Source: Angustibacter luteus
Lineage (GTDB): Bacteria; Actinomycetota; Actinomycetes; Actinomycetales; Angustibacteraceae
Assembly (NCBI RefSeq): GCF_039541115.1
Contig: NZ_BAABFP010000007.1
Coordinates: 1 to 64,000, forward strand
DNA: 64,000 bases
Direction: 5' to 3'
Positions 23,306 to 29,735 of the stretch are shown piece by piece. The translations under genes and the position numbers were made by a program. Every line of letters begins with the position of its first letter. The first letter of the stretch is position 1. The notes beneath the pieces are model-generated. The model saw only the letters and a list, made by a program, of their open reading frames with translations, searched no databases and had not been told where the DNA came from.

Positions 23306-24637
<1,332 letters not shown>

Positions 24638-24644
24638 CCGACCG

Positions 24645-25190
24645 ATGGCAGCAGGTCGTCGTCCGGGCAGCCCGGGCACCACGCGCGCCGGTGCCCGGCC
24701 CGGCACCGGCGAACGCAGCGGGGGACGCACCGGCGTCCGCCCGGCCCCGGCGGTCTCGGCCCGCCGGCGGCCGGTGGCCACCGCGCCCCGGCCGAGCCGC
24801 ACGCTGCGGCTCGTCGTCCTGGGCGGTGTACTGGCCGTGCTCGCGGTGCTGCTCGCGCCGGCGCTGCGGTCCTACCTCGCCCAGCAGCAGCAGATCGACA
24901 CGCTGCGCTCGAGCGTGGCCGAGCAGCAGGCCCAGGTCGGTGACCTGCAGAAGGAGCGGGCCGCCTGGAACGACCCGGCGTACGTGAAGGCGCAGGCCCG
25001 GGACCGGCTGAAGTTCGTCATGCCCGGCGAGAAGGCGTACACCGTGATCGACCCGCGGCCCGCGACAGACCCGGCGAAGGCCTCACCGGTCAAGGCCGCC
25101 GCCAAGACGGCGCGCAGCGACCGCTCCTGGTTCGACGACGTGTGGCGCTCGGCGCAGATCGCCGGCGGGCAGTCCCAGACCCAGCCATGA
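24645..25190 (+). CDS. FtsB/DivIC-type septum formation initiator
   Basis: 181 residues. A basic, proline-rich cytoplasmic N-terminus (about 1-48) precedes a single transmembrane helix (LVVLGGVLAVLAVLLAPAL, about 50-70) and a periplasmic coiled coil (QQQQIDTLRSSVAEQQAQVG) followed by the conserved VKAQARDRLKFVMPGE segment. FtsB/DivIC proteins link FtsL and FtsQ in the divisome. The location directly after eno, as in many actinobacteria, supports the call. It overlaps the next gene (ATGA). Confidence 0.88.
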   Translation: MAAGRRPGSPGTTRAGARPGTGERSGGRTGVRPAPAVSARRRPVATAPRPSRTLRLVVLGGVLAVLAVLLAPALRSYLAQQQQIDTLRSSVAEQQAQVGDLQKERAAWNDPAYVKAQARDRLKFVMPGEKAYTVIDPRPATDPAKASPVKAAAKTARSDRSWFDDVWRSAQIAGGQSQTQP

Positions 25191-25711
25191 CCGAGGTACG
25201 GGCCGCCGACCTGGCGGCCGTCGAGGCCCAGCTCGGCCGTCGTCCGCGCGGAGTCGTGGCCGTCGCGCACCGCTGCCCGTGCGGGAACCCGGACGCGGTC
25301 GAGACCGCGCCCCGGCTGGACGACGGCACGCCGTTCCCCACCACGTTCTACCTGACCTGCCCGCGGTTGACCGGGGCGATCAGCACGCTCGAGTCGTCCG
25401 GCCTGATGGCTGAGATGACCGCCCGGCTGGACGACGACCCCGAGCTCGCCGCCCGCTACCGGGCCGCGCACGAGGACTACCTGCGCCGGCGCGCCCTGCT
25501 CGGCGACGTCCCCGAGATCGCGGGCACCAGCGCGGGCGGGATGCCGACCCGGGTCAAGTGCCTGCACGTGCTCGTCGGGCACGCGCTGGCGGCTGGACCA
25601 GGGGTCAACCCGTTCGGCGACGAGGCGCTGGAGGCGTTGCCGCAGTGGTGGTCTCGCGGGTCGTGCACGGCTGGCGACCCACCAGATGGCTCGATCGAGG
25701 GGGAGACATGA
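25187..25711 (+). CDS. DUF501 domain-containing protein
   Basis: 174 residues. The conserved VAHRCPCGNPDAVETAPRL and PFPTTFYLTCPRL segments and the late GGMPTRVKCLHVLVGHALA are the hallmarks of DUF501, a family found mainly in actinobacteria between ftsB-like and ppx genes. The cysteines (CPCG; CP; C) and histidines suggest a possible metal site, which is an inference; biochemical function is unknown. Starts and stops overlap both neighbours (ATGA on each side), so the three genes are tightly coupled. Confidence 0.9.
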   Translation: MTEVRAADLAAVEAQLGRRPRGVVAVAHRCPCGNPDAVETAPRLDDGTPFPTTFYLTCPRLTGAISTLESSGLMAEMTARLDDDPELAARYRAAHEDYLRRRALLGDVPEIAGTSAGGMPTRVKCLHVLVGHALAAGPGVNPFGDEALEALPQWWSRGSCTAGDPPDGSIEGET

Positions 25712-26643
25712 CGCGGGTGGCGGCGTTCGACTGCGGCACCAACTCGTTGCGGCTGCTGGTCGCGGACGTCGACCCGGGCGCGGGCTCGTTGACCGAGGTG
25801 GAGCGGGAGATGCGCATCGTCCGGCTCGGGCAGGGCGTGGACCGCACCGGCCAGTTCGCCCCCGAGGCGCTCGAACGCACGCTGGCGGTGACGGCGGAGT
25901 ACGCGACCCGGTGCCGTGAGCTGGGCGTCGAGCGGCTGCGGTTCGTGGCGACGTCCGCGACCCGGGACGCGAGCAACCGCGCGGAGTTCATCGACGGCGT
26001 CCGCGAGCTGCTCGGCGTCGAGCCCGAGGTGGTGCCCGGTTCGGAGGAGGCGCAGCTGTCGTTCGAGGGGGCGACCTTCGAGCTGCTCGCCGACGCGGTG
26101 CCGGGGCCGTTCCTGGTGGTGGACATCGGCGGTGGCTCCACCGAGCTGGTACGCGGCGAGACGGGCGTCGAGGCCGCGCTGTCCGTCGACGTGGGGTGCG
26201 TCCGGCTGACCGAGCGGCACCTGCACACCGACCCGCCGACGTCCACCGAGGTCGAGGCGGCTCGGGCCGACGTCCGGGCCGCGCTGGACCGAGTGGCCGA
26301 GGTCGTGGCGCTGCCAGGGATCCGGACGGTCGTGGGGCTGGCCGGCTCGGTCACCACGGTGACCGCCGAGGTGCTCGGACTGAACCGCTACGACCCCGAG
26401 CGGATCCACCGCGCGAAGATGCCGGTGGACGCCGTGCGCGAGGCCTGCGACCGGCTGCTCCACCAGACCCGCGAGCAGCGCGCGGCCCGGCCGTACCTGC
26501 ACCCCGGCCGGGTGGACGTCATCGGCGCCGGTGCGCTGGTCTGGCGCGAGGTGATCGACCGGGTGGTGGCCGAGTCCGGCGTCACCCACGTGCAGGCCAG
26601 CGAGCGCGACATCCTGGACGGCATCGCCTTCTCGCTCGCCTGA
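25708..26643 (+). CDS. Ppx/GppA family phosphatase
   Basis: 311 residues. The actin-like phosphate-binding loops are present: AAFDCGTNSLRLLVAD at the N-terminus, VVDIGGGSTELV (about 133-144), and GLAGSVTTVTA. The family hydrolyses inorganic polyphosphate or guanosine pentaphosphate and so links to stringent response and phosphate storage. The short length (no C-terminal HD-like domain) is typical of actinobacterial Ppx1-type proteins. The ATG overlaps the DUF501 stop. Confidence 0.92.
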   Translation: MTRVAAFDCGTNSLRLLVADVDPGAGSLTEVEREMRIVRLGQGVDRTGQFAPEALERTLAVTAEYATRCRELGVERLRFVATSATRDASNRAEFIDGVRELLGVEPEVVPGSEEAQLSFEGATFELLADAVPGPFLVVDIGGGSTELVRGETGVEAALSVDVGCVRLTERHLHTDPPTSTEVEAARADVRAALDRVAEVVALPGIRTVVGLAGSVTTVTAEVLGLNRYDPERIHRAKMPVDAVREACDRLLHQTREQRAARPYLHPGRVDVIGAGALVWREVIDRVVAESGVTHVQASERDILDGIAFSLA

Positions 26644-26763: not shown

Positions 26764-27609
26764 GTGACGACCTCGCGCGACCCGCACCCGGTGACCGGGC
26801 GGGAGTTCGCCTCGCCCGTCCCGCCCGGCACCGGCTGGCCGGGCGATCCGGCGACCGCACGCACGCCTCGGGCGGCGCAGTCGGCGGACGTCGTCCGGCT
26901 GGCCGGGTCGGCCCGGGACGTCGGCACGCTCGACGCCCGGATCAGCGTGTGCCGGGCCTGCCCGCGCCTCGTCGAGTGGCGCGAGGACGTGGCCCGGGAC
27001 GGCCGCCGGGCCGCGTTCGCCGACCAGCCGTACTGGGGCCGGCCCGGTCCCGGCTTCGGCGACCCCGCCCCGCGGCTGCTGGTGGTCGGGCTGGCGCCGG
27101 CTGCGAACGGAACCAACCGCACCGGCCGGATGTTCACCGGTGACCGCAGCGGCGACTGGATCTACGCGGCGCTGCACCGGGCCGGCTACGCGAAGGTGCC
27201 GTGGTCGCGGCACGCCGGCGACGGGCAGCAGCTGGACGGCGCGCGCATCGTCGCTGCGGTGCGCTGCGCACCGCCGGGCAACAAACCGACCGGCGAGGAG
27301 CGGGCCACCTGTGCGCCGTGGTTGGACGCCGACGTCCGGCTCGCGCTGCCGACCCTGCGCGCGGTGCTGGCGCTCGGCGCGATCGGCTTCGAGGCGTTCC
27401 TGGCGGCGGCCCGGCGGACCGGCTGGGCGGTGGCGCGGCCGGCGCCGCGGTTCGGCCACGGCGTGCAGGTGCCGCTGGTCACCCCGGACGGGCGCGTCGT
27501 CCCGCTGCTCGCCAGCTACCACGTGAGCCAGCAGAACACCTTCACCGGCCGGCTCACCGAACCGATGCTGGACGACGTCCTGGCCCGGGTGCGGACGCTG
27601 ACCGGGTAG
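26764..27609 (+). CDS. Uracil-DNA glycosylase family 5 (UdgB-type)
   Basis: 281 residues. Motif A is [22 protein letters not shown] (about 109-130), where family 5 enzymes lack the catalytic Asp/Asn of family 1; motif B is [14 protein letters not shown] near residue 250. The cysteines CRACPRL (about 62-68), CAPPGN and CAP fit the iron-sulfur cluster of families 4 and 5. The enzyme removes uracil and other deaminated bases from DNA, important in a GC-rich genome where cytosine deamination is frequent. GTG start supported by the CAGGAT hexamer 6 bases upstream. Confidence 0.9.
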
Positions 27610-27627: not shown

Positions 27628-28152
27628 ATGAGCCTGCTCGCCGTCACCGTGCTCGGGCACGACCGTCCCGGCATCGTCGCCGACACCACCGCCGCGCTGG
27701 CCGAGCTCGGGGGCAACCTCGAGGACTCGACCATGACGTTGCTGCGCGGCCACTTCGCGATGCTGCTGCTGGTGCGCACCGGCGCGGGCGCGCCCGCCGT
27801 CCGGGACGCCCTGGCGGGGCTGTCCGCCGACGGACGGCTCACCGTCGACGTCCGGGACGTGCCCGACCTCGAGCTGCACGCCGCGAGGGCGGCCGGGCGG
27901 CCGTACGTGCTCAGCGTGCACGGCGCGGACCGGCCCGGCATCGTCGGCGCGCTGACCGGGGTGGTGGCCGGGGCCCGGGGGAACGTCACCGACCTGACCA
28001 CGAGGCTGTCGGGTGACCTGTACGTGCTCGTCGCCGAGGTCACGCTGCCCGCCGACGTGGACGTCGAGCTCGTCCAGTCCGCGCTGCGCAGCACCGCCGA
28101 CGAGCTCGGGGTGGACGTGTCGCTGCGGCCGCTCGAGACCGACGAGCTGTGA
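27628..28152 (+). CDS. Double ACT-domain protein, GcvR-like
   Basis: 174 residues comprising two ACT domains: one begins AVTVLGHDRPGIVADTTAAL (about 5-24), the second VLSVHGADRPGIVGALTGVV (about 93-112). This arrangement matches glycine-cleavage regulator GcvR and related amino-acid-sensing proteins. There is no enzymatic domain, so it is a small-molecule sensor, probably of an amino acid. The stop overlaps the start of the peptide deformylase gene, an association seen elsewhere in actinobacteria. Confidence 0.8.
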   Translation: MSLLAVTVLGHDRPGIVADTTAALAELGGNLEDSTMTLLRGHFAMLLLVRTGAGAPAVRDALAGLSADGRLTVDVRDVPDLELHAARAAGRPYVLSVHGADRPGIVGALTGVVAGARGNVTDLTTRLSGDLYVLVAEVTLPADVDVELVQSALRSTADELGVDVSLRPLETDEL

Positions 28153-28697
28153 GCGAGGCCTCGGCCGGGTGGCGCCTACCGGCGCTGCCCCCCGGTGCGG
28201 TGCGGGACGTCGTCCGGGCTCCCGGGCGGGTGCTGGCCGAGCCGGGCACGGACGTCGACCCCGCCGACCCTGAGGTCGTGCAGCTCGCCGCCGACCTGCT
28301 GGCCACCCAGGCCGTCTCGCCCGGGTGCGTCGGGCTGGCCGCCCAGCAGGTCGGGGTGGCCTGGCGGGTGTTCAGCGTGGACGTGTCCGGCCACCCCAAG
28401 ACCCGGACCTGCCACGGGGCGTTCGTCCTGTGCAACGCGGTGGTGCTGGAGGGGAGCCGGTGGGAGCGCGGTCGGGAGGGCTGCCTGTCGGTGCCGGACC
28501 TGACCGGCGACGTGAAGCGGGCCCGGCGCCTTGTGGTGCGGGGGTTGCTGCCGGTCACCGGCGAGGTCGTCACGGTGACCACCGACGCGTTCGAGGCGGT
28601 GGCGCTGCAGCACGAGATCGACCACACGGACGGTGCCCTGTTCCTCGACCGGGTGGCCGGCGCGCACGCCCTGCACCCGCGGCAGAACTACCGGTAG
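28149..28697 (+). CDS. def: Peptide deformylase
   Basis: 182 residues. The three family motifs are present: GCVGLAAQQVG (motif 1), REGCLSVPD (motif 2, metal-binding Cys, about 114) and LQHEIDHTDG (motif 3, HExxH, about 155). It removes the formyl group from nascent N-terminal methionine using a metal ion. The GTG start overlaps the ACT-protein stop. Motif 1 has AQQ where the GxGLAAxQ consensus is met, so activity is expected. Confidence 0.92.
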   Translation: MSEASAGWRLPALPPGAVRDVVRAPGRVLAEPGTDVDPADPEVVQLAADLLATQAVSPGCVGLAAQQVGVAWRVFSVDVSGHPKTRTCHGAFVLCNAVVLEGSRWERGREGCLSVPDLTGDVKRARRLVVRGLLPVTGEVVTVTTDAFEAVALQHEIDHTDGALFLDRVAGAHALHPRQNYR

Positions 28698-28703
28698 TTC
28701 TGG

Positions 28704-28709
28704 CAGGCT
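28704..28709 (+). promoter_or_regulatory. Predicted -10 (CAGGCT) of the tRNA gene
   Basis: CAGGCT ends 7 bases before the first base of the tRNA (28717), the distance expected for transcription to begin at or next to the mature 5' end. Confidence 0.4.
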
Positions 28710-28716
28710 GGCCCTC

Positions 28717-28790
28717 GCCCCCGTAGCCCAACCGGCAGAGGCAGGCGCCTTAAAAGCGTTCCAGTACGGGTTCGAACCCCGTCGGGGGCA
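28717..28790 (+). tRNA. tRNA with UAA anticodon (nominal Leu), short variable loop
   Basis: A cloverleaf is clear: acceptor GCCCCCG pairs perfectly with CGGGGGC, T-stem ACGGG/CCCGT with TTCGAAC loop, and anticodon stem GGCGC/GCGTT (two G-T pairs) with loop CTTAAAA, giving anticodon TAA. Discriminator base is A; CCA is not encoded. By anticodon it reads UUA (Leu). Two features are odd: leucine tRNAs should have a long variable arm, but only five bases (CCAGT) are present, and the D-arm carries an extra G (GAGGC), disturbing the stem. The 74-nt length is that of a class I tRNA. Confidence 0.7.
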
Positions 28791-28919
28791 CCTCGCAGAA
28801 ATTGGCCCCCGTTCTCGCCGGACTTTCGGGAACTTCCCAGGCTCGCGGGGCATTATGTGCATGACGGCCCGTGTCACGGGACGCCGCGATGGTCCGGCTG
28901 CGGACCGAGGAGGACGACG

Positions 28920-29735
28920 ATGAGCAACCCGGTGTTCGAACGGATGAAGGACGACCGCGGCTACGCGACGTTCGGTCCGTCCGGCGCGACCAAGACGGGC
29001 TCGACGACCGCATCGGTGCCGCCGGCGTACTCGACCCCGTCCGCCGACGAGCTGCAGACCATGTACTCCTCGCCGGCCGCCACCACGGTCGACACCGGCC
29101 GCATGACCTACGACGACGTCGTGGTGAAGACCGCGATCGTGTTCGTCGCGGTGCTGGTCGGTGCCGCGGTCGGCTGGCAGGCGCCGGTCCTGATGTGGCC
29201 GGGTCTGATCGGTGGCCTCGTCCTCGGCCTGGTGAACTCGTTCAAGAAGAGCCCGAGCCCGGCGCTGATCATCGCCTACGGCCTGTTCGAGGGCGCGTTT
29301 CTCGGCGGGATCAGCATGTACTTCAACGAGGCCTACCCGGGCATCGTGGGGCAGGCCGTGCTGGCCACCCTCGGCGTGTTCGCGGTGGTGCTCGTCGGGT
29401 TCCGCAGCGGGAAGCTGCGCACGTCCCCGAAGCTGAACAAGATCTTCTTCGTCGCCATCGGCGGGTACATCGTCTTCGGTCTCGTGAACCTGATGTTCTC
29501 GGCCTTCGGCGGCGGCTCCGACCTGCGCAGCGGCGGCCTCGGCCTGGCGATCGGCGCCTTCGCCGTCATCCTGGCGTCCTACTCGCTGGTCATGGACTTC
29601 GAGTTCATCCGGGCCGGCGTCGAGCAGGGTGCCCCGGCGAAGTTCGCCTGGTACGGCGCCTTCGGTCTCATCGTCACGCTGGTCTGGCTCTACATCGAGA
29701 TCCTGCGGATCCTCGCCATCCTGCGCGGGGACTGA
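28920..29735 (+). CDS. Bax inhibitor-1/YccA family membrane protein
   Basis: 271 residues. The N-terminal ~65 residues are hydrophilic (MSNPVFERMKDDRGYATFG), followed by seven predicted transmembrane helices and the conserved tail (LVMDFEFIRAGVEQGAPAKFAWYGAFGL). This is the actinobacterial YccA/BI-1 branch; such proteins are proposed calcium-leak channels or protease modulators, but the bacterial function is unsettled. The ATG at 28920 has GAGGAGGA about 6 bases upstream. A strong hairpin terminator follows the stop, so it is a single-gene unit. Confidence 0.92.
   Translation: MSNPVFERMKDDRGYATFGPSGATKTGSTTASVPPAYSTPSADELQTMYSSPAATTVDTGRMTYDDVVVKTAIVFVAVLVGAAVGWQAPVLMWPGLIGGLVLGLVNSFKKSPSPALIIAYGLFEGAFLGGISMYFNEAYPGIVGQAVLATLGVFAVVLVGFRSGKLRTSPKLNKIFFVAIGGYIVFGLVNLMFSAFGGGSDLRSGGLGLAIGAFAVILASYSLVMDFEFIRAGVEQGAPAKFAWYGAFGLIVTLVWLYIEILRILAILRGD

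Follow-up and report, generated by a model that had tools for sequence, protein, structure and literature searches.

Within the window, i.e., the entire 64,000-nucleotide stretch of Angustibacter luteus DNA analyzed here, positions 28717-28790 of the forward strand hold a complete class I tRNA-Leu(UAA) gene, with a UAA anticodon and a variable loop of 5 nucleotides. ARAGORN called this sequence a tRNA-Leu(taa) spanning positions 28717-28792, and the Rfam model RF00005 matched positions 28717-28790 with a score of 53.6 bits (gathering score, 29), all 71 positions of the model being covered. At the 3' end, CC but not CCA is encoded. The tRNA and its surroundings comprise the following features, with positions in the D-arm being numbered in a scheme of our own, by analogy with E. 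coli tRNA-Leu.

25142-25711, + strand: DUF501 protein, a conserved neighbor (Pfam, synteny)
25630-26643, + strand: Ppx/GppA phosphatase, a conserved neighbor; start codon approximate (Pfam, synteny)
26764-27609, + strand: uracil-DNA glycosylase superfamily protein, a neighbor in many lineages (Pfam, synteny)
27628-28152, + strand: ACT-domain protein, a neighbor in some lineages (Pfam, synteny)
28149-28697, + strand: peptide deformylase family protein, encoded immediately upstream of the tRNA gene (Pfam, synteny)
28704-28709, + strand: possible -10 element, CAGGCT; weak, differing at one base from TAGGCT, which is the hexamer most often seen upstream of the homologs
28717-28790, + strand: tRNA-Leu(UAA) of class I, having a short variable loop; these coordinates cover the mature tRNA minus CCA (ARAGORN, Rfam RF00005, homologs)
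28717-28723, + strand: 5' strand of the acceptor stem, GCCCCCG, forming 7 bp with 28783-28789 (paired in 153-155 of 155 distinct short leucine tRNAs, depending on the position)
28726-28742, + strand: leucine-type D-arm (homolog alignment, feature scoring and determinants given in part of PMC9976931)
28726-28728 and 28740-28742, + strand: D-stem of 3 bp, GCC with GGC
28729, 28730, 28731 and 28734-28735, + strand: C13, A14, A15 and G18G19 of the D-arm
28736, 28737, 28738 and 28739, + strand: C20, A20a, G21 and A22 of the D-arm
28744-28760, + strand: anticodon arm, GGCGC-CTTAAAA-GCGTT, with a 7-nt loop and a stem whose base is formed by two G.U pairs
28751-28753, + strand: anticodon TAA (UAA) (ARAGORN)
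28761-28765, + strand: variable loop, CCAGT, 5 nt, the last being U48 (28765), the expected partner of A15
28766-28782, + strand: T-arm, ACGGG-TTCGAAC-CCCGT, with a 5-bp T-stem
28790, + strand: discriminator A73 (153 of 155 distinct short leucine tRNAs also have A)
28920-29735, + strand: Bax inhibitor-1 (BI-1)-like membrane protein, encoded downstream of the tRNA gene (Pfam, synteny)

The sequence itself, ARAGORN and RF00005 thus all confirmed the coordinates, stems, 7-nt anticodon loop, A discriminator and short variable loop listed in a preliminary description of this stretch. The minimum-energy fold of the bare tRNA sequence is not a cloverleaf; in that fold, as in the RNAalifold structure of model R1, residues 10-12 pair with residues 18-20. 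This pairing was set aside in favor of the canonical 10-12/23-25 stem, because homologs with altered letters at 10-12 still form the latter. ARAGORN also called a tRNA-Ser(cga) at positions 23375-23450 on the reverse strand of the window; this call is probably false, having no Rfam match, and a normal-length tRNA-Ser(CGA) is found elsewhere in the genome (L070).

Scans of the tRNA region of the window for sigma-70-type promoters and terminators found nothing, and no TAnnnT is present 10-25 nt upstream of the tRNA, where CAGGCT alone was seen. TAnnnT lies at this distance in 91 of 177 class I loci, as compared to 3-15 in six control windows, an enrichment which suggests that class I tRNA-Leu genes may possess promoters of their own. 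The tRNA encoded in the window is presumably expressed.

The Angustibacter luteus genome (4.16 Mb in 11 contigs, rated 100% complete) yielded 45 matches to RF00005, all over the cut-off and every one subsequently read with ARAGORN. The other leucine tRNAs, with anticodons CAA, CAG, GAG and UAG, are 83-85 nt long and all of class II, with variable regions of 13-15 nt, as compared to the 5 nt of the window tRNA; when variable arms of at least 10 nt were taken to define class II and those of 4-5 nt class I, the window tRNA fell into class I. Leucine tRNAs are described as class II species with a long variable arm in sections of PMC7609411, as are cytosolic leucine tRNAs in sections of PMC9976931. 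The preliminary description had considered a class I-sized UAA tRNA to be at odds with what is expected of a bacterial leucine tRNA, an assessment borne out here, and had proposed that a second, canonical tRNA-Leu(UAA) be sought. No class II UAA tRNA was, however, present among the 45 RF00005 matches, nor did a strict class II UAA pattern match anywhere in the genome. As such, the window gene is the only UUA reader seen there. A single leucyl-tRNA synthetase (LeuRS) gene scored over the cut-off in each of seven genomes considered, bearers of the class I and class II forms alike, and the domains of the A. luteus enzyme were identified as well.

In E. coli, leucylation is described, in portions of PMC9976931, as requiring A73, A15-U48, G18G19 and A20a but not the long variable arm, with armless variants still being charged. 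The window tRNA retains every one of these determinants. In both this tRNA and the class II leucine tRNAs of the same genome, eight bases separate GG18-19 from the anticodon stem, the second of these being an A (20a), and the D-arm is built in the same register, namely, with a 3-bp D-stem, unpaired 13/22 and the extra base 20a. The base reported earlier as being inserted into an irregular D-arm is thus real, and fits position 20a of a leucine D-arm; the irregularity did not hold up, with the arm being invariant across 26 aligned homologs (26 of the 30 best BLAST-type loci described below, that of the window included) and following the class II leucine register. When A14, A15, A20a, U48 and A73 were scored, with GG setting the register, the set was complete in all five leucine tRNAs of the genome but in no other (0 of 40 distinct tRNAs), the nearest being both tRNA-Lys species and tRNA-Ala(TGC), which miss only 20a.

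The same five features were present in 45 of 48 distinct short homologs found by BLAST, in which the variable loop is 5 nt (46 sequences) or 6 nt (two sequences) long. Two class I tRNA-Leu(UAA) sequences from family f7 (L012 and L017) present G73 in place of A73, a change that should weaken leucine charging if the E. coli rules apply, while L109, we think, misses the full set through a 5' base added by ARAGORN. Among 61 distinct class II leucine tRNAs, 50 contained all five features, nine could not be parsed and two failed.

The distribution of the class I form was considered in several manners. When 99 genomes from the order or from closer to A. luteus were searched in a BLAST-type manner, 98 gave matches at E values up to 10, other tRNAs being included in this count. 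ARAGORN read all of the 30 best places, including that in the window, as class I tRNA-Leu(taa), and 20 weaker places as 13 class I UAA and seven class I CAA tRNAs. A copy that is 95% identical is found in a second genome of the same genus (L002), and the class I UAA form was verified at the sequence level in 15 of 20 sampled families of the order. Of the remaining families, f4 (genomes G006, G053 and G095) and f14 (genome G048; L250) contain a class II UAA tRNA, while f12, f13 and f16 lay outside the tRNAs read for this 20-family comparison. An exact-pattern scan of named genomes returned at least 119 loci, 118 of 119 being class I tRNA-Leu(taa) and the remaining match lying at the end of a stretch. 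The pattern matches listed include Mycobacterium, Mycolicibacterium, Nocardia, Rhodococcus, Gordonia, Corynebacterium, Microbacterium, Arthrobacter and kin, Nocardioides, Amycolatopsis, Streptosporangium, actinobacterium IMCC26103 and Acidimicrobiaceae, as well as metagenome-assembled genomes (MAGs) labeled Planctomycetota, Rokuibacteriota, Deltaproteobacteria, Acidobacteria and Chloroflexaceae, labels that may reflect contamination. Over 72 of the 74 bases of the window tRNA, annotated tRNA-Leu genes of the Corynebacterium phages StAB, Adelaide and Lederberg show 77.8% identity to it, and two unannotated fecal phage records match it at 91% and 84%.

In a class-wide search, model R1 matched 144 of 148 genomes at its threshold, a number that must include other tRNAs, since the A. 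luteus genome alone gives three matches. Of 29 newly fetched R1 loci, 28 were read as Leu taa and one (L353) as Phe aaa, a result we attribute to this anticodon loop having been read out of register. Strict patterns, both of them incomplete, matched 48 (class I) and 32 (class II) of the 148 genomes. ARAGORN found no tRNA whatsoever in 10 of 30 fetched class II pattern loci, and when one mismatch was allowed, the class II pattern matched 71 of the 99 genomes within the order, mostly at CAA and UAG tRNAs.

In total, 181 short leucine tRNAs were collected, of which 155 distinct sequences were parsed (one with a UAG and one with an AAG anticodon being among these) and two entries were not. At every stem position, 150-155 of the 155 are paired, and two-sided, compensatory changes are many, with three at the first and three at the second D-stem pair; the anticodon loop and the stems are conserved as in a decoding tRNA. 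The invariance of the D-arm across the set of at least 119 pattern-derived loci arises in part by construction, as the pattern fixes much of this arm, yet the sets found by similarity (26 aligned and 48 distinct short sequences) show D-arm conservation like that of the pattern set.

Comparison of seven proteins encoded in the window with those encoded around related tRNA genes revealed a recurrent arrangement, with DUF501 and ppx upstream and BI-1 downstream, and with udg, ACT and def in between in some lineages. Conservation beside def and BI-1 in relatives had been suggested earlier as a check; BI-1 was found to recur downstream, with def being present in some lineages. At least one of the seven neighbors is on the same strand at 97 of 179 class I loci and at 14 of 30 class II UAA loci (each of at least 1.4 kb), and none at 82 of 179 and 16 of 30, respectively, many of these stretches being short; the copy in the window is among those counted, as are a few places that enter twice.

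The same neighborhood also surrounds class II UAA tRNA genes. In L311, an 84-nt class II UAA tRNA lies in the order ppx-ACT-def-tRNA-BI-1, and whole or partial versions of the neighborhood are found around the class II UAA tRNAs of L281 (genome G048), L280 (genome G006), L086, L089, L285, L288, L289, L297 and L299. In family f37, class II UAA genes L303 and L308 lie beside BI-1, while L333 (genome G116) is flanked by BI-1 and, at a distance of about 8 kb in the other direction, by DUF501 and ppx. We take f37 to be Streptomyces, on the basis of the letters of bldA. On this assumption, the mention of bldA in the preliminary description was apt, with bldA being found in the same gene neighborhood. 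The window gene thus shares the conserved neighborhood of a bldA ortholog and lacks its class II structure. In family f3, none of the neighbors is found with the class II UAA genes L279 and L282, in stretches of 15 kb each. Also in f3, at L075 (G021:C20) and L076 (G052:C1), a class II tRNA-Leu(UAA) lies close to a 93-nt tRNA-Ile(UAU) whose variable region is long, in stretches without any of the neighbors of the window tRNA.

Considered together, these observations point very strongly to the window gene being a bldA ortholog that is without the variable arm, that functions in elongation as a UUA-reading tRNA-Leu and that is charged by the single LeuRS. In such a scenario, the tRNA would decode UUA and help with UUG by wobble, and would be orthologous to the class II tRNA-Leu(UAA) found in the same neighborhood, with the long arm having been replaced by a 5-nt loop; the class II form would presumably be ancestral. 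The sole LeuRS of the cell should still charge the armless tRNA, because the bacterial determinants lie elsewhere, namely, in A73, A15-U48, G18G19 and A20a in a leucine-type D-arm. Judging from sequence, such charging probably takes place in A. luteus.

A different origin, with the same function, was also weighed, in which the class II gene was replaced by a different kind of class I tRNA that had been remolded to leucine. We regard this as possible but rather unlikely. UAA and CAA anticodons are both found on class I bodies, and the UUR tRNA that is armless differs by lineage, being UAA only in A. luteus (with CAA of class II), CAA only in G048 (with UAA of class II) and both in G028. No class II CAA tRNA was present among the class II tRNAs of G028 and G048, all of which were read, and the UUR tRNAs of G028 are of class I only. 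Such differences imply either that the arm was lost or replaced more than once or that class I genes replaced class II genes. Furthermore, the D-arm letters are alike in MAGs labeled as other phyla despite their different acceptor stems, although the scan pattern fixed much of this arm. Against remolding, the class II UAA genes of family f4 (L089 and L086) share with the class I form not only the neighborhood but also nearly all letters of the acceptor stem and T-arm, and the D-arm of the class I form is in the leucine register.

Class I tRNA-Leu(CAA) genes with the same kind of body were seen at L110, L111, L115, L117, L120, L121, L122, L271, L326 and L327. Class I tRNA-Leu(UAA) genes with differing acceptor stems were seen at L133, L136, L154 and L155, in MAGs labeled as other phyla. 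The class II UAA pattern matched two of six genomes when applied to those containing L133, L136, L154, L155, L185 and L149, with ARAGORN reading neither match as tRNA-Leu.

As UUA is nearly absent from the window (73.6% GC), appearing once in the ORFs taken and there in an ORF that may be spurious, the meaning of this codon was addressed in relatives only. Proteins encoded in loci of relatives bearing the class I gene were aligned, and UUA sites were assigned to columns in which the majority residue accounted for at least 60% of at least eight sequences, with UUA and UUG being left out and each site being counted once. Twelve loci provided 73 such sites, 63 of which fell on leucine columns, with the others falling on V (five), I (two), R, Q and E (one each) and none on lysine. 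By the same measure, CUG, taken as a control, fell on leucine at 1754 of 1987 sites, CUA at 70 of 74 and UUG at 201 of 235. L209 (24 of 28 on leucine) and L127, from the low-GC actinobacterium IMCC26103 (13 of 14), supplied most of the UUA sites; L173 gave 3 of 6. For a test of UUG in G028, sites in conserved columns were too few, with none in L283 (G028), one, on alanine, in L281 (G048) and three in the window, two on isoleucine and one on leucine.

For IMCC26103, in which ORFs of 8 kb contain 46 UUA codons, tRNA matches from across the genome were read as well, for this locus alone among the 12. Eighteen of its 38 tRNA matches were read, including all six of at least 79 nt, which correspond to Ser, Tyr, Leu(GAG) and Leu(TAG); hence, no class II UUR tRNA was found among matches of this length. 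Also among the matches read were three leucine tRNAs of class I, with the anticodons UAA (L270 and L275) and CAA (L271). The D-stem of one of the two UAA genes is altered yet still paired.

These results bear on the proposal that the tRNA is charged with another amino acid, such as lysine or arginine, with UUA being reassigned or ambiguous. The short variable loop is indeed in the style of class I tRNAs, and A14, A15, U48 and A73 are shared with both tRNA-Lys species and with tRNA-Ala(TGC) of this genome. Moreover, global alignment of the tRNAs of the genome against the 74 nt gave identity counts for Arg(CCT) (55), Glu(TTC) (54) and Lys (52-53) that are about the same as that for Leu(CAA) (55). 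By the same counts, the lysine-like body noted in the preliminary description is nothing special. With UUA being on leucine in 63 of 73 conserved columns of bearer loci and with lysine absent from the other ten, and with 20a completing the feature set in the leucine tRNAs alone in this genome, charging with another amino acid, as had been raised earlier, is very improbable.

Also highly unlikely is that the sequence specifies a non-translational tRNA-like RNA that acts as a regulator or as an aminoacyl donor, whether or not it also decodes. The near-absence of UUA from the window would mean that little decoding is needed in this genome, in keeping with such a role. On the other hand, the gene provides the only UAA tRNA, and hence the only UUA reader, found in this genome, tRNAs of the same family exist in UUA-rich genomes such as that of IMCC26103, and the anticodon loop and stems are those of a decoder. 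A second, non-decoding role beside translation may nonetheless exist. Finally, a decayed gene or a sequencing error, as the structure might suggest at first sight, is ruled out by conservation, given the 95% identical copy in the same genus, the same form in 15 of 20 sampled families and the compensatory changes in the stems.

Extending the preferred reading, namely, that of a functional tRNA-Leu for UUA without the variable arm, beyond Angustibacter, it seems likely that in Actinomycetota, a distinct and widespread class I tRNA-Leu(UUR) replaces the class II form for UUA, UUG or both, depending on the lineage, with the CUN isoacceptors remaining class II, with leucine identity residing entirely in A73 and in the corner formed by the D- and T-arms, and with one LeuRS handling both shapes. 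The placement of such a gene where other actinobacteria carry the ordinary version offers a natural test of what makes a leucine tRNA. As this conserved, natural armless set occupies the gene position of the armed form, the function of the variable arm in tRNA-Leu becomes directly testable by swapping natural orthologs. If true, the armless tRNA may also escape enzymes, toxins and modification systems that sense long variable arms. The existence of the conserved armless set is of relevance for mycobacteria and corynebacteria, in which the same form is found. These findings further serve as a warning that such genes should not be discarded as pseudogenes.

The window gene is, we presume, surely annotated as tRNA-Leu in databases. 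The change of class of tRNA-Leu(UAA) and the extent of this change, however, seem to be undescribed, as none of the matches listed in the open-access literature, a body of work that leaves most subscription papers outside, was found to describe a class I tRNA-Leu(UAA) from a bacterium.

Several known tRNAs provide points of comparison. The closest is bldA, the class II tRNA-Leu(UAA) of Streptomyces, along with its counterparts in other bacteria, with which the window tRNA shares the UAA anticodon, the leucine-type D-arm, A73 and the neighborhood, be it flanked by DUF501 and ppx and, at the opposite side, by BI-1, as in G116, or in whole or in part, as in L311, L281, L280 and L297. The window tRNA differs in having a 5-nt loop in place of the stem-loop arm and in showing no sign of a developmental role; a bldA-type regulatory role, in which development and secondary metabolism are governed through the translation of UUA, is doubted for groups outside Streptomycineae in PMC4255298. 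Human mitochondrial tRNA-Leu(UUR), described in part of PMC9976931 as being specified essentially by A73 and A14, is another leucine tRNA that reads UUR codons and has no long variable arm. This tRNA is, however, organellar, belongs to another lineage and synthetase and has a partly unfolded anticodon branch, whereas the bacterial form keeps A20a, A15-U48 and well-paired stems.

Within bacteria, genomes of the Mycobacterium mucogenicum clade are reported, in PMC6582537, to contain a cluster-encoded tRNA-Leu(TAG) which, like the window tRNA, combines a leucine anticodon with a short variable loop. That tRNA is an extra, probably phage-derived copy beside the normal isoacceptor, whereas the window tRNA is the only UAA species found and is encoded at a conserved locus. 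A known armless tRNA with a leucine anticodon that is a recent relative of tRNA-Met scores poorly as leucine, whereas the leucine features of the window tRNA are complete; a human gene with a leucine anticodon and no arm is considered to be of uncertain isotype in part of the paper describing tRNAscan-SE 2.0 (PMC8450103). Lastly, minimal E. coli tRNA-Leu variants lacking both the anticodon and variable arms are leucylated provided that A73 and the contacts between the D- and T-loops are present (Larkin et al., 2002, as cited in a portion of PMC9976931). Those variants are laboratory constructs, whereas the window tRNA is the product of a natural, conserved gene and has its anticodon arm.
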